A stretch of DNA of 64,000 nt from Streptosporangium saharense. GTDB taxonomy: Bacteria > Actinomycetota > Actinomycetes > Streptosporangiales > Streptosporangiaceae. Of this stretch, positions 7,397-57,885 are shown one piece after another. The stretch's first letter is position 1, and each line of letters opens with the position of its first letter. Both the position numbers and the translations under genes were made by a program. Below the pieces are notes generated by a model. The model was not told the DNA's origin and made no database searches. It saw nothing but the letters and a program-made list of their open reading frames with translations. The stretch is taken from assembly GCF_014203715.1 (NCBI RefSeq), contig NZ_JACHJP010000001.1, forward strand, positions 536,432-600,431, in the 5' to 3' direction.

Positions 7397-8782
7397 TTAG
7401 CGGGCGCTCCACCTGACCTCGTGGGGCTGGAGGGTGACCTTCTTGCCGTCCACGGTGGCGTCGATCTTCTTCTCGGTGGTGTTGACCATCACCAGTTGTT
7501 CGGGCTGGGCCAGCACCCGGATCGCGGGGTTGGAGGAGGTGACGTCCTCAAGCTTGGCGTCGGCGGGGAACCATTTGGCGAAGCCGCTGACCAGCTTGCC
7601 GGTCGGCAGCAGGGCGCCGGTCTTCGGGTCCCACATGCAGCCGTCACAGGCACCGCTCTTGGCCTGCGGGTTCCAGTACAGCGCGGTCGCCGCGCCGCTC
7701 CTGGCGAACTCGATCATCGAGGCGGCCTGTACGGCGAGCCGCTTGGCAGCGGGCCACGCGGTGCCGTCCTCGGGGACGAAGTACCACTCCGACCACCAGA
7801 TCGGCATGTCCCCGGTCTTCTTCCGCAGCCAGGAGGTGACCGCGCTGAACTTGCCCAGCGCGCCGAAGGCGTCGGGCAGCAGCTCGTGGGCGTCGGTCAG
7901 CGAGGCGCCGTCGACTACGACGAAGTCGGCGCCCTTCTTGTTCTCGAACCAGTAGGTGAAGGCGTCCAGGACGTTCTGGTTGACGACCCCCCACGACCCG
8001 CGCAGCTCGGAGGTGCCCTCGCGGTTGGTGTCGAACCCGATGTACGGCCCGCCTATCTTGGCGTCGGGCCTGACCTTCTTCACCGCGTCGTAGACCTTGT
8101 TGTACAGCTCCGTGTAGCCCTTGTAGTCGGCGGGCTTCGAGTGGTCCTTCCAGAATCCCTTGAGCTCGTTCCAGACCATGAAGTACTTGACGTCGCGATA
8201 CCGGTCGGCGACGGCCGCGGACAGTTTCGCGAAGTCGTCGAAGTGCTCGGGGTAGGGGGCGTCCTCAAGGTGCTCGGCCCAGGCCGACTCCTCCGTCGGT
8301 CCCTGGGGGCCGCCCTTCATCCAGTCGGGCGCGCAGCACAGCGTGATGACGGGTGTGCCACCGGACTGCCGCATGAGGTTCGTCCGGCTGTCGAGGTCCT
8401 CCCAGTAGTAGTCCCCGGGATGCGGCTCGGGGTTGAGCGCGCCGAAGCCCATGATGTGCTGGTTCTGCAGCATCGGAATCGGGGAGAGCGCCTGGCTCAC
8501 GTCCTGTTCGAACCGCTGGGTGACGTTGTTGGCGCTGATCCCGGTGTGGGTGAAGCCCCAACGTGGCCAGTCGGGATCGACCGAGGGCGGCGTGGCGATC
8601 TCACTGGCCGCCTGGGGCGAGGCGCTGAAGCGCTGCGCGTCGGGGGTCGCCCCACCGTCGTCGCCGGAGGAGCAGCCGGCCGCGACCAGCGTCACCGCGA
8701 CGATCGCGGCGGCCGAGGCGATCGCCCGGCCGCGGAGACGCCACGTCGATCCCGCGTTACCCGATGACACCTTGGTCTCCAT
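7397..8782 (-). CDS. Secreted lipoprotein glycoside hydrolase (clan GH-A, GH39-like)
   Basis: With the ATG at 8782 the protein has 461 residues and a lipoprotein signal ending in VAAGC (lipidated Cys about 37). The body reads as a (beta/alpha)8 clan-A glycosidase. WNELKGF near residue 204 carries the Asn-Glu acid/base pair, and WWSEWYF near residue 330 carries the nucleophile Glu. The pattern is closest to GH39-type xylosidase/iduronidase-like enzymes, but the substrate cannot be fixed. An upstream extension to 8863 is possible in frame but would bury the signal peptide. It is monocistronic. The stop abuts the IS630 remnant. Confidence 0.8.
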   Translation of the reverse strand: METKVSSGNAGSTWRLRGRAIASAAAIVAVTLVAAGCSSGDDGGATPDAQRFSASPQAASEIATPPSVDPDWPRWGFTHTGISANNVTQRFEQDVSQALSPIPMLQNQHIMGFGALNPEPHPGDYYWEDLDSRTNLMRQSGGTPVITLCCAPDWMKGGPQGPTEESAWAEHLEDAPYPEHFDDFAKLSAAVADRYRDVKYFMVWNELKGFWKDHSKPADYKGYTELYNKVYDAVKKVRPDAKIGGPYIGFDTNREGTSELRGSWGVVNQNVLDAFTYWFENKKGADFVVVDGASLTDAHELLPDAFGALGKFSAVTSWLRKKTGDMPIWWSEWYFVPEDGTAWPAAKRLAVQAASMIEFARSGAATALYWNPQAKSGACDGCMWDPKTGALLPTGKLVSGFAKWFPADAKLEDVTSSNPAIRVLAQPEQLVMVNTTEKKIDATVDGKKVTLQPHEVRWSAR

Positions 8783-12827: not shown

Positions 12828-13526
12828 ATGGGGACGGTTGTGAGGGGTGGGTTTCGGTGGGTTTCTGACCTGCTGTTTGATTTTGGGGAGAACCGGCACG
12901 GGGTGCTGCCCGCTCTGCTGGTGGTGCTGACCGTCACGACCGGGCTCGTGGACGCGCTCAGTTTCCTCGGGTTGAGCCGGGTCTTCGTCGCCAACATGAC
13001 CGGAAACGTGGCCTTTCTCGGATTCGCCCTGGCCGGGGACCCGCAGTTGTCGGTGTGGGCCCCGCCCCTGGCCGTCGCCGTCTTCACTGCGGGGGCCTGG
13101 AGCACCGGGCGCCTGGCCCGGTGGATGCCGGACGCGCGGCGGGAGTTCACGATCCTCACGGCCGCGCACGCGCTCCTGGTCGCGGTGGCCCTCGTGGTCG
13201 CCCTGCTCGCGGGTCACCGCACGGTGGGTGTCCGGGCGGCGCTGATCGCCCTTTTGGGGTACGGCATGGGCCTGCAGAACGCCGCGGCGCGTCGGCTCGC
13301 GGTGCCCGACCTGGTGACCATCACCGTCCTGACCAGCACCCTCACCCGCCTGGCCGCCGACCCGCCGGAACGGGCAGGGCTGCGCCGTTCGGTCTCGATC
13401 GCCGCCCTGTTCACCGGAGCCCTGGCGGGCGCCGCCCTCTTCCTGAACCTCGGCGCCGTACCGGTCCTGGCCCTCGCCGTGGCCCTTCTCACGGTCGTGA
13501 CCTTCGCCTCGCGTTCCCGGTCATGA
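12828..13526 (+). CDS. YoaK/DUF1275-family membrane protein
   Basis: From the ATG at 12828 the protein has 232 residues and six hydrophobic segments. LLVVLTVTTGLVDALSFLGLSRVFVANMTGN is the DUF1275 hallmark near residues 25-55, and YGMGLQNAAARRLAVPDLVTITV is its second conserved stretch. The family consists of putative transporters of unknown substrate. GGGGA at 12813-12817 is a possible ribosome site; the frame is also open upstream to 12684. Its stop overlaps the convergent gene's stop (13521-13526). Confidence 0.85.
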   Translation: MGTVVRGGFRWVSDLLFDFGENRHGVLPALLVVLTVTTGLVDALSFLGLSRVFVANMTGNVAFLGFALAGDPQLSVWAPPLAVAVFTAGAWSTGRLARWMPDARREFTILTAAHALLVAVALVVALLAGHRTVGVRAALIALLGYGMGLQNAAARRLAVPDLVTITVLTSTLTRLAADPPERAGLRRSVSIAALFTGALAGAALFLNLGAVPVLALAVALLTVVTFASRSRS

Positions 13527-14060
13527 CGCGTTCTGCGGAACTCCCGTGTGCGATGCCCTGACCCATTTCTCGTCGACCTTTTCTCCGAAGAGCGACTCGG
13601 CGGTGATCAGGGCGGCCCTGGCCCAGTCGTCCTTCCATGTGTCGTATCCCGCGGGTGTGGCGGAAATCCATTTATTGACGCTTTCGATGTCGGGTTCTGG
13701 AATGAATTCCCAGTCGAAGGGATCGAAGAAAATCGCGGGTTTTTCGCCCGTGACGTAGGTGATTCCGGGCGGCGTGGTGTCGCTCCAATGGACGCTCAGA
13801 CACGGTCCGTACTGGGCGAGAGGTCGCAGGACATCGTTCGTTGGGCAGCCGTTGGGCTGAATCACCAGCGTGCCTTTGCCGAGACGGCCGACAAGCAGGC
13901 GAAGCTCGGGAAGCAGGGCGAGAGTGGTGGGCTCCGCCTCGGTGGCGGCCACGCCGTACGCGGCCAGGACGTCGTGGGGTGACGTGGCCGAACACCATGT
14001 CAAACCATCCACGTAGCCAAACTCGTCATTGAACCAGGTGAGATACTTGTCGTCGATCAC
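13521..14060 (-). CDS. DUF6461-like hypothetical protein
   Basis: The 179-residue protein starts MIDDKYLTWFNDEFGYVDGLTWCSATSPHDVLAAYG. This resembles the DUF6461-type proteins common in Streptosporangiales, which typically read 'W...GYC...V.G.TP.EVL'. No catalytic motif or membrane segment is visible, and acidic and aromatic residues are abundant. It converges with the YoaK-type gene, with overlapping stop codons, and diverges from the peptide/methyltransferase cassette that begins at 14377. The function is unknown, and the family assignment is by eye. Confidence 0.6.
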   Translation of the reverse strand: MIDDKYLTWFNDEFGYVDGLTWCSATSPHDVLAAYGVAATEAEPTTLALLPELRLLVGRLGKGTLVIQPNGCPTNDVLRPLAQYGPCLSVHWSDTTPPGITYVTGEKPAIFFDPFDWEFIPEPDIESVNKWISATPAGYDTWKDDWARAALITAESLFGEKVDEKWVRASHTGVPQNAS

Positions 14061-14376
14061 GGGTTTTCGCCTTTCTTATTTTGAATTCGGCGTGTAGCCG
14101 GTCATCGACTTCGTTCCTTCCCGGAACGGGTCTTTCCCAACAGTCCGATCCGCGTTCACACGGGACAGGATGGCGACAACATCTCCGAATTACCATGGAG
14201 AGCCGCACGTCGCCATTGCGTACAGACCAGACTTACCGCCCCACACATCGCCCATCATCCCAGAGATCTCGTAATACCGTGGTTATTGAATTGTTTCTCC
14301 CTGGTATCTCATCGTGAGATTACGATGACCGCGAGCGCTCCAGATTGGGGGCAGGCGAGGAAAGGAAGACAGCCGA
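14061..14376. promoter_or_regulatory. Upstream region of the peptide/methyltransferase cassette
   Basis: The 316 bp between the divergent genes at 14060 and 14377 contain no reading frame I would support. They are less GC-rich than the surroundings and include a perfect 15-bp inverted repeat (ATCTCA-TCG-TGAGAT, 14306-14320), 56 bp before the first peptide start. It is a candidate operator for the cassette; no adjacent regulator gene is obvious. Confidence 0.45.
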
Positions 14377-14472
14377 ATGGGAGACCACGAAGGCAAGCTG
14401 ACGCCGGCGCACTCGGACGGTGCCGTCCCACATGGAAAGCACGAGAAGCCGAACGAGGGCCCGAAGAAGTGA
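14377..14472 (+). CDS. Putative RiPP precursor peptide 1 (imiditide-like, 31 aa)
   Basis: A strong site, AAAGGAAG at 14361-14368, precedes ATG 14377. The peptide begins MGDHEGK and ends KHEKPNEGPKK, with Asp14-Gly15 in the segment SDGAVPHGKH. It is highly charged and has no Cys. The stop overlaps the GTG start of the next gene by GTGA (14469-14472). The paralogous peptide at 15678 shares the first seven residues and an aligned D-G-x-x-P-x-G-K-H segment. Known biology: PCMT-like peptide aspartate methyltransferases convert a precursor Asp, often before Gly, to aspartimide in imiditides and other RiPPs. I infer that Asp14 is the modified residue. Confidence 0.7.
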   Translation: MGDHEGKLTPAHSDGAVPHGKHEKPNEGPKK

Positions 14473-15626
14473 GCATGCAGCGGGAGCTGCGTGATCTGTT
14501 GATGGAGACGGGGATGCTGACCCCGGACTGGGAGACCGCCTTCGAGACGGTTCCCCGGCATCTCTTCCTGCCCGAGGTGATGTGGCCCGCCACTGAGAAG
14601 GGGCATATCACCGTCTCCAGGACCAACGATCCCGATGGGTGGTGGCACTGGGCCGACGCCGACGTGCCCATCGTCACCCAGTGGGACGACGGCCGTCACA
14701 CCGGCTCCGCGCCCGGCGCGCTGGCCACCAGCTCCAGCTCGATGCCCACCGCCGTGCTGCTCATGTTCGACGAACTGTCGGTGTTCGATGGAGCGAGGGC
14801 GCTGGAGATCGGCACCGGCACCGGCTGGTGTGCCGCCCTGCTGTCGGCTCGGCTCGGCGAGGCGAACGTCACCTCCGTCGAGATCGACGAGGCGGTGGCC
14901 GACACCGCGCGCAAGGCCCTGGAGGTCGCCGGTTGGCACCCCGAGGTCGTCACCGGGGACGGCCTGCTCGGCTGGCCGGAGGGCGCGCCGTACGATCGCA
15001 TCCTCGTGACGGTCGGCGTTCACGAGGTTCCCCGGGCCTGGATCGAGCAGACCAGGCCCGGCGGGGTGATCGTGATGCCCTGGGGCACCCGCTACAGCGG
15101 GCAGAACGCCGTCGTCCGGTTGGTCGTCGCCGACGACGGCACCGCCAGCGGGCGGTTCTCCAGGGCCACCCGGTTCATGCACGTGCGTTCCCAACGTCTG
15201 GACTGGCCCGAGTTCGATGACTACCTCCCCGGAGAGGGATGGCCCGCCGACACACGCAGCTCGACCACGGATCTGCCATCCGCGCAGATCATCGACGAAT
15301 CCGACTACGCCGCCTCCGACTTCGCGATCAGTCTCCTGGTGCCCGACTGCGTCCGTACTTTCGCGCGCAGCCCACAGGGGGTGCAGACCATGTGGCTGTA
15401 CGGCCTGGCCGACCGGTCCTGGGCGGCGGTGTACTTCGACGAGGACTCGCAGGTCTACCAGGGCGGTCCGCGCAATCTGTGGGATGAGGTTGAGAGCGCG
15501 CATCGGTGGTGGGTCGAGCGGGGAAGGCCGGGGCACGAGGAGTTCGGCCTGACCGTCACCGCCGATGGACGCCAGGAAGTATGGCTGGGCGAGCCATCCA
15601 CGCCCGTGCCGCATATCGTTTCTTGA
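14469..15626 (+). CDS. PCMT-like peptide aspartate O-methyltransferase 1
   Basis: The 385-residue enzyme starts at GTG 14469, coupled to the upstream peptide. The N-terminal helical part contains ETVPRHLFLPEVMWP, a hallmark of protein-isoaspartate methyltransferase homologues. ALEIGTGTGWCAALL (about 111-125) is SAM motif I, TSVEID the acidic motif, and PGGVIVMPWG the post-motif strand. After the Rossmann fold comes a C-terminal extension of about 150 residues (ending VTADGRQEVWLGEP) not present in housekeeping PCMT but found in RiPP-associated members. The role inferred is methylation of an Asp side chain in the adjacent peptide, leading to aspartimide. No ATP-grasp or LanM gene lies nearby. 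Confidence 0.8.
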   Translation: MSMQRELRDLLMETGMLTPDWETAFETVPRHLFLPEVMWPATEKGHITVSRTNDPDGWWHWADADVPIVTQWDDGRHTGSAPGALATSSSSMPTAVLLMFDELSVFDGARALEIGTGTGWCAALLSARLGEANVTSVEIDEAVADTARKALEVAGWHPEVVTGDGLLGWPEGAPYDRILVTVGVHEVPRAWIEQTRPGGVIVMPWGTRYSGQNAVVRLVVADDGTASGRFSRATRFMHVRSQRLDWPEFDDYLPGEGWPADTRSSTTDLPSAQIIDESDYAASDFAISLLVPDCVRTFARSPQGVQTMWLYGLADRSWAAVYFDEDSQVYQGGPRNLWDEVESAHRWWVERGRPGHEEFGLTVTADGRQEVWLGEPSTPVPHIVS

Positions 15627-15677
15627 TCATCACAAGCTCCCGAGCTGGGAGCCCGCCAGAGGAAGGAAGGCACGCGC

Positions 15678-15794
15678 ATGGGAGACCACGAAGGCAAACC
15701 GGCCGAAGACCGACCGAAGGGGCCGGAGTTGGATGGGGGAGCGCCGAGGGGTAAGCACGCGAAGCCGGAGCCAAAGCCGGAGTCCGAGAAGTGA
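15678..15794 (+). CDS. Putative RiPP precursor peptide 2 (imiditide-like, 38 aa)
   Basis: The ATG at 15678 follows a GGAAGGAAGG site. The 38-residue peptide repeats the start MGDHEGK and carries LDGGAPRGKHAKP, which aligns without gaps to SDGAVPHGKHEKP of peptide 1. Asp19-Gly20 matches Asp14-Gly15. The middle differs in length and sequence. It ends in a Lys/Glu/Pro-rich tail and overlaps the next gene by GTGA (15791-15794), exactly as in the first unit. The conserved ends and variable middle fit a leader/core precursor. Confidence 0.7.
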   Translation: MGDHEGKPAEDRPKGPELDGGAPRGKHAKPEPKPESEK

Positions 15795-16933
15795 CCTTGG
15801 AGGCCGGGCGGCGGGAGCTGCGTGGGCTCGACTGGGAGGCGGCCTTCGAGGAGGTTCCTCGGGAGCTGTTCCTGCCCGAGACGATGTGGCCGGACGGTGG
15901 GAGTGCCGTCTCCAGGGCCGACGATCCTGAAGGGTGGCGGCGCTGGGCCGACGCCAATGTGCCGATCGCCACCCAGTGGGACGACGGCCTCCACACCGGC
16001 ACCGACCCCGGCCAGGTGGCCAGCAGTTCGAGCTCCGCTCCAAGCCTGGTGTTCTGGATGTTCGCCGAGCTGTCGGTGTTCGACGGGGCGAAGGTGCTGG
16101 AGGTCGGCACCGGTACGGGGTGGTGCGCAGCCCTGCTGTCGGCCCGGCTCGGCGAGGCGAACGTCACCTCCGTCGAGATCGACGAGGCGGTGGCCGAGGT
16201 CGCGTGCGGGGCGCTGACCTCGGCCGGGTGGCATCCGAGGCTCGTCGTCGGGGACGGCCTGCTCGGCTGGCCGGGGGGCGCGCCGTACGATCGCATCCTC
16301 GTGACGGCGGGTGTGCGGAACGTGCCGCGGGCGTGGATCGAGCAGACCCGGCCCGGTGGGGTGATCGTGATGCCCTGGGGGACTCGCTACAGCGGGCAGA
16401 GCGCCGTCGCCCGGTTGGTCGTCAACGGCGACGGCACCGCCGGTGGGCGGTTCTCCTGGGCCACCCGGTTCATGCACGTGCGTTCCCAGCGCCTGGAGTG
16501 GCCCGACCACGAGGACTATCTCTCCCCGGGCGAGGACTGGCCCGACGGCACTCGCCGCTCGATCACCGGCGTGCCGGTCGCGGAGGTCGTGGACGAGTCG
16601 GGCTACGAGGCGTTCGACTTCGTGCTCGGCCTGCTGGTTCCCGAGTGCGCCCGCACCTACGCGCGCAGCCCTCGGGGAGTGCAGACGATGTGGCTGTACG
16701 GCCTGGCCGACCGGTCGTGGGCGGCGGTGTATTTCGACGGGGACTCGCGGGTCTACCAGGGTGGTCCGCGCAGTTTGTGGGACGAGGTTGAGGTGGCGTA
16801 TCGGTGGTGGGTCGAGCGGGGGAGGCCGGGGCACGAGGAGTTCGGCCTGACCGTCACCGCCGATGGACGCCAGGAGGTGTGGCTTGGCGGGCCGTCGGCG
16901 CCGGTGCCGTGTGCCGCGTCAGCCGTACGGTAG
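15791..16933 (+). CDS. PCMT-like peptide aspartate O-methyltransferase 2
   Basis: This 380-residue paralogue of the enzyme at 14469 is alike along its whole length: EEVPRELFLPETMWP, VLEVGTGTGWCAALL, TSVEIDEAVAEVA, PGGVIVMPWGTRYSG, and the same C-terminal extension with VQTMWLYGLADRSWAAVYF. GTG 15791 overlaps the stop of peptide 2. The whole peptide-enzyme unit has been duplicated, and the two copies have diverged mainly in the peptide middle and the enzyme N-terminus. It ends 3 bp from the convergent methyltransferase stop at 16937. The function is inferred as for copy 1. Confidence 0.8.
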   Translation: MTLEAGRRELRGLDWEAAFEEVPRELFLPETMWPDGGSAVSRADDPEGWRRWADANVPIATQWDDGLHTGTDPGQVASSSSSAPSLVFWMFAELSVFDGAKVLEVGTGTGWCAALLSARLGEANVTSVEIDEAVAEVACGALTSAGWHPRLVVGDGLLGWPGGAPYDRILVTAGVRNVPRAWIEQTRPGGVIVMPWGTRYSGQSAVARLVVNGDGTAGGRFSWATRFMHVRSQRLEWPDHEDYLSPGEDWPDGTRRSITGVPVAEVVDESGYEAFDFVLGLLVPECARTYARSPRGVQTMWLYGLADRSWAAVYFDGDSRVYQGGPRSLWDEVEVAYRWWVERGRPGHEEFGLTVTADGRQEVWLGGPSAPVPCAASAVR

Positions 16934-20620: not shown

Positions 20621-20833
20621 TCAGAAGTCGAACTCGCCGTTCTTCGCGCCGTCGATGAAGGCGTCCCAGACGGCGGCGCGTACGACGTAGGGGGCCTGGT
20701 CGGGGGCTTCGGTGTCGCGAATGCCGACGCGGCCTCCGGAGAGCGGAGCGACCTCAAGGCAATTGCCGCCGTTGGAGCCGCTCCTGGTGGCCTTTCTCCA
20801 GGAGGCGTTTTCAAGCTCTTCGCTCAGGTTCAT
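20621..20833 (-). CDS. DUF397 protein (copy 2)
   Basis: The 70-residue protein reads ASWRKATRSGSNGGNCLEVAP, then VGIRDTEAPDQAP and WDAFIDGAKNGEFDF, the complete DUF397 pattern. ATG 20833 is chosen because GAGGAG lies 9 bases upstream; ATG 20842 would abut the site. It differs from the copy at 21004 at only about eight positions, and much of the DNA is also identical, so this is a recent tandem duplication. DUF397 proteins are typical small partners of XRE/DUF5753 regulators in actinomycetes. Confidence 0.9.
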   Translation of the reverse strand: MNLSEELENASWRKATRSGSNGGNCLEVAPLSGGRVGIRDTEAPDQAPYVVRAAVWDAFIDGAKNGEFDF

Positions 20834-20893
20834 CGCTGGCATCTCCTCTGACTCCGAGTCGGCTTTCGGTTAAGGGAGGGGTTTTGCCTGGTG

Positions 20894-20932
20894 GGGGGCG
20901 CCGTCCGAGGGTGGGCGGAGCCCCCTTTTTTT
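20894..20932 (+). terminator. Intrinsic terminator between the two DUF397 copies (plus strand)
   Basis: GGGGGC at 20894-20899 pairs with GCCCCC at 20920-20925, and the stem continues inside with CCGTCC/GGGCGG around a GAGGGT loop. Seven T follow on the plus strand. The T run points to termination of rightward transcription, for example read-through from the hydrolase gene antisense to DUF397. On the minus strand it could only act as a weak attenuator. Confidence 0.65.
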
Positions 20933-21003
20933 GTTGCTGTACGGCTCGCGGGCGTTTTGGCATTCCCTACGGCCGCTGGGAACCGTGGTCCGCGAGATAG
21001 GGG

Positions 21004-21216
21004 TTAGAAGTCGAACTCGCCCTTTTTGGCGCCGTCGATGAAGGCGTCCCAAACGGCGGCGCGTACGACGTAGGGGGCCTGGTCGGGGGCTTCGGTGTCA
21101 CGGATGCCGACGCGGCCTCCGGAGAGCGGAGCGACCTCAAGGCAGTTGCCGCCGTTGGAGCTGCTCTTAGTCGCCTTCCTCCACGAGGCTTCCTTCAGCT
21201 CGTCGTTTAGGTCCAC
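21004..21216 (-). CDS. DUF397 protein (copy 1)
   Basis: This is a 70-residue DUF397 protein starting MDLNDELKEASWRKATKSSSNGG and ending AKKGEFDF. Its ATG at 21216 overlaps the last 10 bases of the XRE regulator (stop at 21207), so the two are translationally coupled. The pairing of a DUF5753 regulator with DUF397 is a well-known actinomycete module, the small protein being thought to antagonise or assist the regulator. A second copy lies 170 bp downstream. Confidence 0.92.
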   Translation of the reverse strand: MDLNDELKEASWRKATKSSSNGGNCLEVAPLSGGRVGIRDTEAPDQAPYVVRAAVWDAFIDGAKKGEFDF

Positions 21217-22031
21217 TTTCGGATCTTCTCCTCTATTAGGCGCTTGCTCTCCCTGCGAGACAGGGCGTCCGCCCTAATGGCCTCATACCGGATGCTTATG
21301 TATCTAACTGTCTCGGGCTGGTCGGTGACCTGGCCCGTTCCTGCGGACTCCAGATACGCCGTGTCCCTGGCTCCGGGAATCGTTGCCAAGGCGAAGCCAC
21401 CGAGCATGCCGGTGGTTGAGCCCAACTCCAGGGGGGAAACTTGGACGCTGATGTAAGGAGACTCTACCGTTTCAAGTAGATGCTCAAGCTGTCCACGCAG
21501 CACCTCCTTGCCTCCCACGGGCCTGATTAGGGCGCACTCATCAAGCACCGCCCACAGCATGGGAGGAGTTTCCTGGAGGAACACGTTCTGGCGAGCCATT
21601 CGTACCGCCAGCTTGCTCTCCACGGCCTCCTCCGTCAGTCCAGGCTCTCCCCGGATAGCTGCTCTGGCATACTCCTCCGTCTGGAGCAGACCCGGGACGA
21701 CCAGCGGTTCCCAGGATCGGATCGAGGTCGCGACCCGTTCCACTTCCACCCACGACCTGAACCAGCTCGGCGTGCTCTCTGCCTCTGTGGCGTCGTAAAG
21801 CTTGAGCAGCTCGCCCTCCGCACCCAGCACTCGATCGCATCGTTCGACGAGACCCCTTGCCGGACGGCGACCGGCCCGCTCCACCTGGCCGATCTGGCTG
21901 TGGCTGTAGGAGACACGGTCGGCGAGCTGTTCCTGGGTGAATCCTGCGGCCTCTCTGTAGTAGCGGAGTGCCAGGCCTAGGGCGGCCAGCGGGGTCTTCG
22001 GGTTGGGGTCGAGCTTCTTGGGGGCAGGCAC
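21207..22031 (-). CDS. XRE-family regulator with DUF5753 domain
   Basis: From GTG 22031, preceded by AGGAGGG, the protein has 274 residues. The HTH spans about residues 13-70 (LRYYREAAGFTQEQLADRVSYSHSQIGQVERAGRRP). The DUF5753 domain follows from about residue 95, with FRSWVEVERVATSIRSWEPLVVPGLLQTEEYARA as its standard opening. Such regulators, with DUF397 and a divergent HATPase kinase, form abaA/whiJ-type loci that influence development or antibiotic production in Streptomyces. The role here is inferred from that arrangement. An upstream extension to 22154 is not supported by the ribosome site. Confidence 0.9.
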   Translation of the reverse strand: MPAPKKLDPNPKTPLAALGLALRYYREAAGFTQEQLADRVSYSHSQIGQVERAGRRPARGLVERCDRVLGAEGELLKLYDATEAESTPSWFRSWVEVERVATSIRSWEPLVVPGLLQTEEYARAAIRGEPGLTEEAVESKLAVRMARQNVFLQETPPMLWAVLDECALIRPVGGKEVLRGQLEHLLETVESPYISVQVSPLELGSTTGMLGGFALATIPGARDTAYLESAGTGQVTDQPETVRYISIRYEAIRADALSRRESKRLIEEKIRKWT

Positions 22032-22246
22032 GGACCCTCCTGATACCGAGGTGCTACAGATGCGACATACAGATTCCGCGCATCCGTCTAATAGATGTGC
22101 GCGGAATCCTCGTTCAGAAGGTAACCGGTTGACGGCACTCTGGGAACTGCCCAAGGGAACACAAGGGCACAGTCAAGGACTTCGTTGTACGGCTCAGCGG
22201 ATATTTGCGCTATAGCCGGACGGCCTGGAGAAGGTGGGTGATTCCT

Positions 22247-56200: not shown

Positions 56201-57885
56201 CCGCTCCCGTTCCGGCTCCTCGGAGGGGTACGGCGGCGCGCGGGGCGGCGGAGCGGCGGCTGTGCCGGTTGTTCGCCGAGGTGCTCGGCCTGCCCGACGT
56301 GGGCGTTGACGAGGGCTTCTTCGCCCTGGGCGGGGACAGTATCGCGGCCATCAGGCTCGTCGGCAGGGCCAGGGCCGAGGGGATGACCTTCACCGCCCGC
56401 GACGTCTTCGAACGCCAGAGCGTCCAGGCCCTGCTGCGCGACACCCGGCGGGACGACTCCCGAAGGGCCGCCCCCACGGCCGGGGACGGGTCGGGCGAGG
56501 TGCCGGTCACCCCGATCCTCGCCGAACTGCTCACCCGGGTCGCCGGGAGCGGCTCGCTGCGCGGCTACACCCAGGCGCGCCTGGTGTCGCTGCCCAGGGG
56601 ACTCGGCGCCGACCACCTGACCAGGGCGGTTCAGGCGCTGCTCGACACCCACGACGCCCTGCGCTCCCGGCTGCTGCCCCCCGGCGACGGGCACCGCGAG
56701 TGGCGGCACGTGATCAGGCCGAGGGGCCGGGTCCGCGCGAAGGACGTGCTGCGGGCCGTACCCGGAGAGCTCACCGGAGACCTGGAGGCCCGCGTCTCGG
56801 CGGCGCTCGACCCCGAGGTGGGGGAGGTGACCGCCTTCGTCAGGTCCGGCGAGGGCACAGGGCGGGACCGGCTGCTGGTCGCCGTGCACCACCTCGCCGT
56901 GGACGCCGTCTCCTGGCCCATCCTGCTCGGCGACCTGGCCACCGCCTGCGCCCAGCTCGCCGAACACGGCCAGGACGATGGGGTACGGCTGCCCGCCACC
57001 GGGACCTCCCCGCGCGAGTGGGCACGCCACCTGCGGGTGACGGCCACCGGCTCCGCCTGCGAGGAGACCCTCGACCACTGGCGTGGCCTGGCCCGTGACG
57101 CGGGCGCGCCGCTCGGCGGACGCCCCCTCGACCCCCGGCGCGACACCATCGCCGCCACCGACTCCCACACCGCCGTCCTGCCCGCCGAGGTGGCCGCGCC
57201 CCTGGCCGCCAGAAGCGGCGCCGAGACGCAGGAACTGCTGCTGGCCGCCCTGGCGCTGGCCGTACCCCGATGGTGTCCGCACGACGAGCCGCCGCTCCTG
57301 GTCGAGGTCGAGGGGCACGGCAGGGAGGAGGCACTGCTGCCCGGCTGCGACCTGTCCCGCACGGTCGGCTGGCTGACCAGCCAGTATCCCGTCAGCCTCC
57401 GCCTCGACGGAACCGCCCCCGACCAGGCGCCGCGCCTGCTCGCCGAACGGCTGCGCGCCACCCCCTTCAGGGGCGTGGAGTACGGCCTGCTGCGCCACCT
57501 CAACCCCCGCACCGCGCCCCTGCTGGCCGGGCTGCCCCGCGCGCAGATCGGCTTCAACTACTGGGGCCGGATATCGGGTGGTTCCGACGGGGACTGGCGA
57601 CCGGTGGAACACGACGCCGTCGTGCGCGGCCACGCCGATCCCGCGCTTCCCGTGCCGCACTGCCTTGAGGTGAACGCCGCCCTGCGCGACGGCCCCTCGG
57701 GGGTCGAACTGCGCGTGCAGTGGTCGTGGGTGGAGGGCCCGTTGACCGGTACGGCGGTACGCGCGCTGGCGGACACCTGGGAACAGCAGCTCAGGAGCCT
57801 GCTGTGGCCGTCCCCCGTCTCCCTCCTCGACGACCTCGACCAGGACGAACTGGAGTCACTCCAGCGTGAATGGAGGCAGGCGTGA
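53209..57885 (+). CDS. NRPS1: C-A-T-E module, predicted Asn (or Asp), epimerised
   Basis: The 1558-residue synthetase has a condensation domain at 1-440 with HHVLADRW (normally HHxxxDG; here Arg replaces Gly). The adenylation domain is at about 463-985, with YTSGSTGRPKG, TSDLNVT and NEYGPTEATVG. Carrier Ser is in LGGDSIAAI near 1043. The epimerisation domain is at about 1095-1545 (HHLAVDAVSW, EVEGHGREE, LSRTVGWLTSQYP). The specificity residues I read are D-L-T-K-V-G-E-V-G-K, closest to Asn codes, with Asp as alternative. A His/Gly/Asp-rich insert (about 905-955) lies before A10. A TTA codon is at 53308-53310. The C-terminal DDLDQDELESLQREW looks like a docking tail. Confidence 0.93.
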   Translation: MATDLAPTSHAQRALWFLHRWDGPSPTYNMPFALRLTGTPDETALRLAVADVAARHDILRTVLEPLDGLPYQRVEPGWTGDLVVLDVVGHDLEERVAQLVARPYDLERETPWGVWLLRGERGSLLLFVLHHVLADRWSFTVLARDLHVAYGARLAGGAPVCPEPAPRYGDYAREQHALLGSGDDPGSPMNRQIEEWRATLAGLPESVPLPADGPPAPDDHTGAEVSLTLPPETVRPLVALARKGRASLFMVLQAAVAALLHRYGAGEDVPLGVTVSGRGDRRWDDLVGPLVNPVVLRVDLSARPSLRDLVGRVRERGLWAYGRSAVPFDRLVDGLNPARSPGRNPLFQVMTLFEQADERAVPLGDLRGEAVPVSTATAKFDLTFVFVHHVADGTVDVVLNYADAMFGAATAHDLVTRFERLLTAAVAAPDTPLDRLDLLSPDEHRRGHALAHGPERPVERPESWVTRRFTELATAQPDRPAVLAQDGELTYGELDLWSNRLARYLVSRGAGPESVVALVLPRGAWTLVAVLATLKAGAAFLPLDPDHPSARNAALLRDAGARLVLTQGGGVSLPPEVEAVRLGRLDLVARLAALPGHDPAPDLAPPHPEQAAYVIYTSGSTGRPKGVVVGRAALATYLEWAVLHYPGLAGAALTHAPLTSDLNVTAALGPLMAGGHVVVGDFTDLTEPGPWPVTPVTFVKCTPSHLALLDDAHGERLAALRTLVVGGEALSGAHLRALRGAGHTPEVVNEYGPTEATVGCVVHSLSPDVPDSPVPVGAPADNCVVHILDHTLRPVPPGVTGELYLGGVQVARGYLGRPGATAARFVADPFVPGARLYRTGDLARRPVGGPIEYLGRVDGQLKVLGNRIEPGEVEAALASHENVAHAAVAVHPGGVDGRERLVGYVVPRRDNHNHGRHPGHDLDPGSELGYGLAHGPTPDHDSGLDSGSDHRSGHGLDPEEVRGYVARSLPPALVPAVVVVLDTLPLTPAGKVDRAALPAPVPAPRRGTAARGAAERRLCRLFAEVLGLPDVGVDEGFFALGGDSIAAIRLVGRARAEGMTFTARDVFERQSVQALLRDTRRDDSRRAAPTAGDGSGEVPVTPILAELLTRVAGSGSLRGYTQARLVSLPRGLGADHLTRAVQALLDTHDALRSRLLPPGDGHREWRHVIRPRGRVRAKDVLRAVPGELTGDLEARVSAALDPEVGEVTAFVRSGEGTGRDRLLVAVHHLAVDAVSWPILLGDLATACAQLAEHGQDDGVRLPATGTSPREWARHLRVTATGSACEETLDHWRGLARDAGAPLGGRPLDPRRDTIAATDSHTAVLPAEVAAPLAARSGAETQELLLAALALAVPRWCPHDEPPLLVEVEGHGREEALLPGCDLSRTVGWLTSQYPVSLRLDGTAPDQAPRLLAERLRATPFRGVEYGLLRHLNPRTAPLLAGLPRAQIGFNYWGRISGGSDGDWRPVEHDAVVRGHADPALPVPHCLEVNAALRDGPSGVELRVQWSWVEGPLTGTAVRALADTWEQQLRSLLWPSPVSLLDDLDQDELESLQREWRQA

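Follow-up and report, generated by a model that had tools for sequence, protein, structure and literature searches.

The closest described relatives of the locus analysed here are the type I pamtides (imiditides), a class of ribosomally synthesized and post-translationally modified peptides (RiPPs) of which the review PMC13001092 counts 1,414. In the sections of PMC10787088 devoted to it, SpaA/SpaM from Streptomyces sparsogenes comprises two genes, one for a linear precursor with a conserved Asp and one for an extended protein L-isoaspartyl O-methyltransferase (PIMT), and NmaA/NmaM from Nonomuraea maritima, as presented in PMC13001092, consists of a precursor and a methyltransferase only. The precursors on which SpaM and NmaM act are linear (PMC10787088, section 2.5; PMC13001092, Imiditides section), and the modified Asp of NmaA precedes a His (PMC13001092). 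Cysimiditides, or type II pamtides, share the two-gene layout with a peptide L-aspartyl O-methyltransferase (PAMT), but need a CxxCxGxG zinc motif, according to the corresponding parts of PMC13001092 and PMC10787088. Here we describe two adjacent peptide and methyltransferase units in a 64,000-nucleotide stretch (the window) from the 8.5 Mb genome of Streptosporangium saharense (contig NZ_JACHJP010000001.1, positions 536,432 to 600,431). These units are probably two type I pamtide cassettes.

The first unit encodes precursor peptide 1 (31 aa; 14377..14472, + strand) and the PAMT-like methyltransferase MT1 (385 aa, GTG start; 14469..15626, +); the second encodes precursor peptide 2 (38 aa; 15678..15794, +) and MT2, also PAMT-like (380 aa, GTG start; 15791..16933, +). 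The peptide stop overlaps the enzyme start in a GTGA in both units, and 51 nt separate unit 1 from unit 2. An earlier note on this DNA had pointed to two such units of a peptide and a PCMT-family methyltransferase, and both pairs of open reading frames (ORFs) were recovered. The two peptides have the N terminus MGDHEGK in common and need no gaps to be aligned over D-G-x-x-P-x-G-K-H, where the Asp is residue 14 of peptide 1 and residue 19 of peptide 2, again as first noticed. Gly accounts for 16% of both peptides, Pro for 13% and 18%, and Asp for 6% and 8%, a composition in keeping with a Gly/Pro/Asp-rich precursor of about 45 aa, though at 31 and 38 aa they are somewhat short. The N-terminal and C-terminal halves carry charges of -2 and +2 in peptide 1 and of -3 and +2 in peptide 2. 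Most precursors of the class are described as acidic towards the N terminus and basic towards the C terminus; by halves, this pattern shows in both window peptides, but not in each of the 15 relatives. Both peptides lack Cys, and hence the CxxCxGxG zinc motif that marks type II.

By analogy with SpaM/SpaA and NmaM/NmaA, the small gene of each unit would yield a linear precursor that is recognised by the partner PAMT, an enzyme dependent on S-adenosylmethionine. The PAMT would methylate the side chain of one Asp, probably Asp14 of peptide 1 and Asp19 of peptide 2, and the following backbone amide would then attack the ester to form an aspartimide. The aspartimide may be the product, or it may be hydrolysed to isoAsp. 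We would guess that the conserved ends of the peptides serve as recognition sites, and that paralogous enzymes act on one another's peptides.

The imiditide-like reading of the earlier note agrees with the enzyme family, the C-terminal domain, the WXXXGXP motif, the single conserved Asp and the absence of other RiPP enzymes from the ten neighbours scanned, all described below. The locus is correctly observed and of a known kind, and its value lies in a set of paralogous pairs and in phage-borne relatives.

Enzymes and precursors of the two cassettes

Relatives were collected at two levels: close enzyme loci, at least 60% identical, from 16 genomes of the genus (short fragments left out), and the best 80 of 509 loci from a scan of named genomes, five of which are S. 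violaceochromogenes or S. carneum loci already in the close set. Both window enzymes match PF01135 (102 bits for MT1 and 97 bits for MT2) and, over nearly their full length, TIGR04188, the methyltransferase subfamily of ATP-grasp peptide systems (316.3 and 292.4 bits). The PCMT match of MT1 stops at residue 241 of 385 and is followed by a C-terminal domain of more than 100 aa. An AlphaFold2 model of MT1 built on 45 aligned sequences (mean pLDDT 93.2, pTM 0.91) predicts a confident fold past the PCMT core. The top Foldseek match of this model in the PDB, ahead of single-domain PIMTs, is the PIMT of Thermotoga maritima, 1DL5 (E 4e-21, 23% identity, TM 0.64 by target and 0.54 by query), which is also the comparator for the C-terminal domain in section 2.2 of PMC10787088.

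The WXXXGXP motif near the C terminus reads WVERGRP in both MT1 and MT2, and is found in all 15 close relatives and in 71 of the 80 named loci. The enzymes are under purifying selection, with ratios of nonsynonymous to synonymous substitution rates (dN/dS) of 0.42 between MT1 and MT2 and of 0.26 (MT1) and 0.25 (MT2) against their nearest relatives. Fold, family match, motif and dN/dS together point to MT1 and MT2 being working enzymes.

The 16 close enzyme loci belong to three of the 16 genomes: nine to the window genome (G000 in our contig codes), five to S. violaceochromogenes JCM 3281 (G015) and two to S. carneum VKM Ac-2007 (G006); the other 13 Streptosporangium genomes have no enzyme at this identity. 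Family peptides were recognised by a pattern drawn from the first ones seen (an MG[DE]H start and G[KQR]HxK, with a long frame after), and an intact one lies immediately upstream of the enzyme at 15 of these loci, whereas at the sixteenth, G015:C15, enzyme and peptide are both broken. The precursors are 31-42 aa long. Met1, Gly2 and His4 never vary among the 15 aligned precursors, nor do the Gly and His of GKH or the Lys of HxK. The codons do vary at conserved sites (all four Gly codons occur both at Gly2 and at the Gly of GKH), though not at every one, the His4 codon being CAC in 15 of 15.

An Asp stands six residues ahead of G[KQR]HxK in 14 of the 15 precursors, and it is the residue that the earlier note had singled out as Asp14 and Asp19. 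This conservation makes Asp14 and Asp19 the best candidates for modification. The residue after the conserved Asp is Gly in six precursors, both window peptides included, Thr, Ser and Lys in two each, and His and Ala in one each. The other conceivable target, Asp3 in MGDHEGK, is disfavoured because it is replaced by Glu in 2 of the 15.

Beyond the close clade, precursors were sought with a filter written after the peptides had been seen: a Gly/Pro-rich, Asp-containing ORF of 25-60 aa that has a ribosome site and stops at the enzyme start. Such an ORF is present at 70 of the 80 named loci, compared with 0 of 160 control stretches. The earlier note would have taken a lack of peptide conservation next to homologous methyltransferases as refuting its reading; such conservation is found at 15 of 16 close and 70 of 80 named loci. 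Peptides that contain PDGG, PDGS or a similar motif, or that are of the type SGNKHGGGGSDEGGNTNDGQGPADGR, precede most of the 80 named enzymes. PDGG occurs in many of the distant precursors, including that beside the S. sparsogenes ATCC 25498 enzyme (L115), which is about 50% identical to MT1; this precursor contains PTPDGGPG and lacks the MG[DE]H...G[KQR]HxK ends found in the Streptosporangium precursors. We infer that L115 is the SpaA/SpaM locus, taking S. sparsogenes DSM 40356 and ATCC 25498 to be one strain. The NmaA/NmaM system is likened here by its description, since Nonomuraea is not among the 80 named loci; the L068 precursor has Asp-His at the conserved position, as NmaA does, whereas the window Asp precedes Gly.

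Outside the genus, some precursors start with MG-x-H and others end in GRHEK, those of L092 and L147 do both, and those of L090 and L116 start with MGKHEKP. A profile of the peptides finds matches at E <=0.01 in 16 of 341 genomes of the family. In the window genome, four PAMTs of 40-44% identity (C1:92759, C1:1128682, C1:1136380 and C8:131818) have no family peptide by the pattern search. The main text of PMC10787088 does not name Streptosporangium.

Dispersed paralogues and the adjacent pair

The window genome contains nine intact cassettes at eight sites, together with an orphan precursor on contig C15 and a decayed copy on contig C9. The orphan precursor, at 57127 (L187 7128-7253), has the same end motifs and the Asp at -6, with Lys in place of Asp3. 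An enzyme for it was found neither in the 14.5 kb read around it nor, on that contig, among the genome's 23 PCMT matches, and an enzyme from another part of the genome may act on it. The decayed second copy on contig C9 comes after an intact cassette and consists of a peptide without Asp at -6 and a 36-residue enzyme remnant (L067 9528-9733). Similarly, a 33-residue enzyme remnant adjoins the cassette on contig C24 of S. violaceochromogenes.

The cassettes do not share a genomic site with the window pair. A blastn comparison (E 1e-8) of the window with 14 relative loci gave no match outside the cassette that would indicate one, the three other matches lying far off, near 38 kb and 46 kb of the window. 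The two-gene layout recurs at unrelated sites with differing flanks. Elsewhere it is rare for a second enzyme to lie within about 5 kb: 1 of the 80 named loci has one, the flanks being short in some of them. On contig C32, S. violaceochromogenes also has a more distant adjacent pair of PAMTs (L054 1796-4418; 35-41% identity to MT1), the second of which follows a precursor-like peptide.

The earlier note called the window pair a tandem duplication. The units do lie side by side, but a simple recent duplication of one unit is rejected by the enzyme tree (31 sequences, including 16 named ones picked from the 80), in which MT1 and MT2 each pair with the enzyme of a different species. All 15 Streptosporangium enzymes form one group (support 97/98), within which MT1 joins an S. 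violaceochromogenes enzyme (98/94), MT2 joins an S. carneum enzyme (100/98), and the four make up a clade (99/98). The synonymous divergence (dS) is 0.37 between MT1 and MT2, as against 0.49 and 0.50 between them and their tree partners, and this smaller value between the two neighbours suggests gene conversion.

Peptide-enzyme pairing and the alternatives

Several observations weigh against the type I pamtide assignment. Neither enzyme reaches the 380 bits set as the TIGR04188 cut-off. The MT1 model superposes loosely on 1DL5 (rmsd 7.9, at the TM of 0.54 by query), and in a sequence profile 1DL5 is matched by the core alone (positions 87-241). The WXXXGXP motif is absent from 9 of the 80 named enzymes, and the filter finds no peptide at 10 of the 80 loci (L084, L094, L096, L131, L142, L144, L148, L154, L155 and L156), some of which hold a plausible peptide outside its limits. 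The basic C terminus of published precursors is not general, as 4 of 15 have a C-terminal half that is not positively charged overall, and the L067 precursor has Thr at -6 and Asp at -8. In addition, peptide and enzyme distances are only loosely related: over the 15 pairs the correlation is r = 0.24, a value reached by 249 of 20,000 permutations in what is an exploratory comparison, and between the C-terminal domain and the peptide, where r = 0.02 is reached by 1,717 of 4,000 permutations, there is no co-variation.

Recognition is ascribed to the C-terminal domain in the sections of the class literature that treat it. In the present set, the correlation peaks at enzyme residues 1-60 (r = 0.41, reached by 2 of 4,000 permutations, uncorrected for the testing of ten windows and three regions) and declines, though not evenly, over the rest of the gene. 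At the S. violaceochromogenes locus L070, the enzyme is nearest to MT1 and the peptide to that of the S. carneum locus L076, and the nearest relative switches between segments of the enzyme. This enzyme also has an apparent frameshift near 8600, close to its start. The pattern of co-variation is explained by linkage as well as by recognition; linkage with recombination suffices, and a lock-and-key fit of each peptide to its enzyme need not be invoked. The weak co-variation leads us to expect that paralogous pairs may cross-react. The earlier note had proposed the tandem locus as a natural test of enzyme-peptide specificity, and the adjacency of the pairs does lend itself to this, but the weakness of the co-variation means that such a test may reveal cross-reaction. 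With nine natural precursor-enzyme pairs in one genome, two of them adjacent, specificity is testable within one cell.

Of the other explanations for the pair, the one that survives best, although we consider it improbable, accepts that the Asp is modified but supposes that other proteins or peptides, such as the orphan precursor on C15, are among the true substrates and are acted on in trans; the linked peptide would then be just one substrate, or a regulator or chaperone of the enzyme. The weak pairing of peptides and enzymes, the orphan precursor on C15 with no enzyme on its contig and the disagreement of the two lineages at L070 would all follow from such an arrangement. It sits poorly, however, with the translational overlap and with a linkage kept at 15 of the 16 close loci, and the peptide has a single conserved Asp, as in the characterised type I pamtides. 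Much less probable still is that the cassettes are remnants of a cluster for a graspetide or another cyclic RiPP, whose primary cyclase has been lost or is encoded elsewhere and whose methyltransferase needs a cyclised peptide. The window enzymes resemble the graspetide methyltransferases of TIGR04188 over their full length, and this graspetide-associated subfamily is their best NCBIfam match, but they differ from it in their score below its cut-off and in their surroundings: no ATP-grasp ligase or other RiPP enzyme was found among the ten window neighbours scanned (a cyclase was not searched for genome-wide), and the two-gene layout recurs at unrelated sites. That these are ordinary protein-repair PIMT genes next to meaningless short frames, as the PF01135 match and the PIMT fold would allow, is scarcely credible given the long C-terminal extension, the full-length similarity to TIGR04188, scores far under the cut-offs of the NCBIfam single-domain PIMT equivalogs (at best 103.8 of 188 bits for NF001453 and 78.8 of 159 bits for TIGR00080), peptides conserved as protein across loci, and nine paralogous copies in one genome.

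Phage-borne relatives, repeats and neighbouring genes

Two-gene cassettes of the same kind as the window pair are also present in phages. A tblastn search of 50,697 phage records with MT1 matched 11 records, eight of them at a coverage of at least 80%. These eight records represent five Austintatiousvirus phages of Streptomyces venezuelae, namely Bioscum, Ididsumtinwong, PapayaSalad, Austintatious and Alderaan (three in duplicate), whose enzymes are 46-48% identical with MT2 as the query. In the four phages that were read, a small hypothetical gene precedes the methyltransferase in every case (annotated as a hypothetical protein and a methyltransferase; L198 4813-6149, L199 4810-6149, L200 4705-6110 and L201 4708-6110), and its peptide contains MSGKHGGGSGSGSGGSQQDD...SSDGSGP(A/S)K, close to the precursor of Streptomyces rimosus L132. 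All four cassettes are flanked by a repressor-like helix-turn-helix (HTH) gene on one side and by lysis genes on the other, and two of the four stretches read also include a serine integrase. The integrase and HTH genes suggest that these phages are temperate.

In IMG/VR, 20 contigs contain a relative, 16 of them with a precursor-like peptide by eye, although several of the matches lie near contig ends, where the prophage boundary may be wrong. Among plasmid records, 484 match and 88 do so at 80% coverage; many are rhizobial and may be ordinary PIMTs, and two regions were read. A megablast search of the cassette region against plasmids gave no match. Words starting with phage or plasmid are absent from the main text of PMC13001092 and PMC10787088 (a search that would not catch 'bacteriophage'), and in a restricted literature collection we found no paper on the Austintatious phages, or on such an enzyme with a prophage in Streptomyces.

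The chemistry of the pamtide class is established, but according to the Conclusion of the 2026 review PMC13001092, linking it to a biological function is the bigger challenge. One rather unlikely proposal is that type I pamtide cassettes are not the usual natural-product genes of a chromosome but self-contained mobile conflict units, carried as accessory genes by temperate phages and plasmids. On this view they multiply in some chromosomes, exchange segments and insert next to orphan CRISPR repeats; the gain from the peptide would lie in prophage fitness, superinfection exclusion or competition, and paralogous enzymes would cross-modify one another's peptides. The occurrence of the cassette in phages of S. 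venezuelae, a laboratory host, offers a tractable system for studying the role of the peptide in a phage or lysogen.

CRISPR-type repeats lie close to some of the Streptosporangium cassettes. In the window genome, they are found within about 600 bp of cassettes at two of the eight sites (C4 and C14), with 14 clusters genome-wide by our own grouping; about 0.03 such coincidences would be expected by chance, by a hand estimate. In S. carneum, repeats also come within about 600 bp of one of the two cassettes and occur at three places genome-wide. In S. violaceochromogenes they lie near three of five, no more than 300 bp away at C1 and C24 and some 1.1 kb away at the broken C15 copy. The repeats or short arrays are located at L064 6938-9088, L070 up to about 7200, L073 6962-7057 and 8735-8952, L063 9095, L076 8570 and L075 5980-6126. 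The window pair itself has no CRISPR-type repeat beside it. An association with CRISPR as a general feature of pamtides is not supported: in 75 named loci outside Streptosporangium, there are 3 repeat-like sites in 198 kb near the enzyme versus 9 in 493 kb at a greater distance. In S. carneum, no Cse1 gene was found, and those of the window genome (C8) and S. violaceochromogenes (C3 and C38) belong to contigs that carry no close-clade cassette.

A Pfam scan of the ten genes neighbouring the window pair identified a GDSL lipase, an acetyltransferase, Spo0M, DUF1275, a methyltransferase (of other Pfam families), TetR, a WYL regulator, an alpha/beta hydrolase, DUF397 and HTH_31/DUF5753. The gene closest to the pair on its upstream side (13521-14060, - strand) matches no Pfam or NCBIfam entry. 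About 4 kb downstream of the pair (20621-22154) are two DUF397-like genes, one of which was scanned, and the HTH_31/DUF5753 regulator. Regulators akin to the latter lie near the cassettes L064 and L076, and phage Bioscum has a repressor-like gene that belongs to this Pfam type too. Genes of the DUF397 and HTH_31/DUF5753 types are common in actinomycetes, and their link to the cassettes may be due to chance.

Upstream of peptide 1, TACGAT (14321..14326, +) is a likely -10 box of its promoter. The sequence TACGNT occurs 39-71 nt ahead of the peptide start in 13 of the 15 cassettes, at 51-56 nt in ten of them, compared with 56 of 3,000 random 80-nt stretches from the same loci. It is absent from the 80 nt ahead of peptide 2, and cassette L063 likewise lacks it; our guess is that one promoter ahead of peptide 1 drives both window units. 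The two units are separated by an inverted repeat, GCTCCCG(AGC)TGGGAGC (15636..15652, +), a variant of the hairpin GCTCC-n4/6-GGAGC that is found in exact form ahead of the peptide in 5 of the 15 cassettes.

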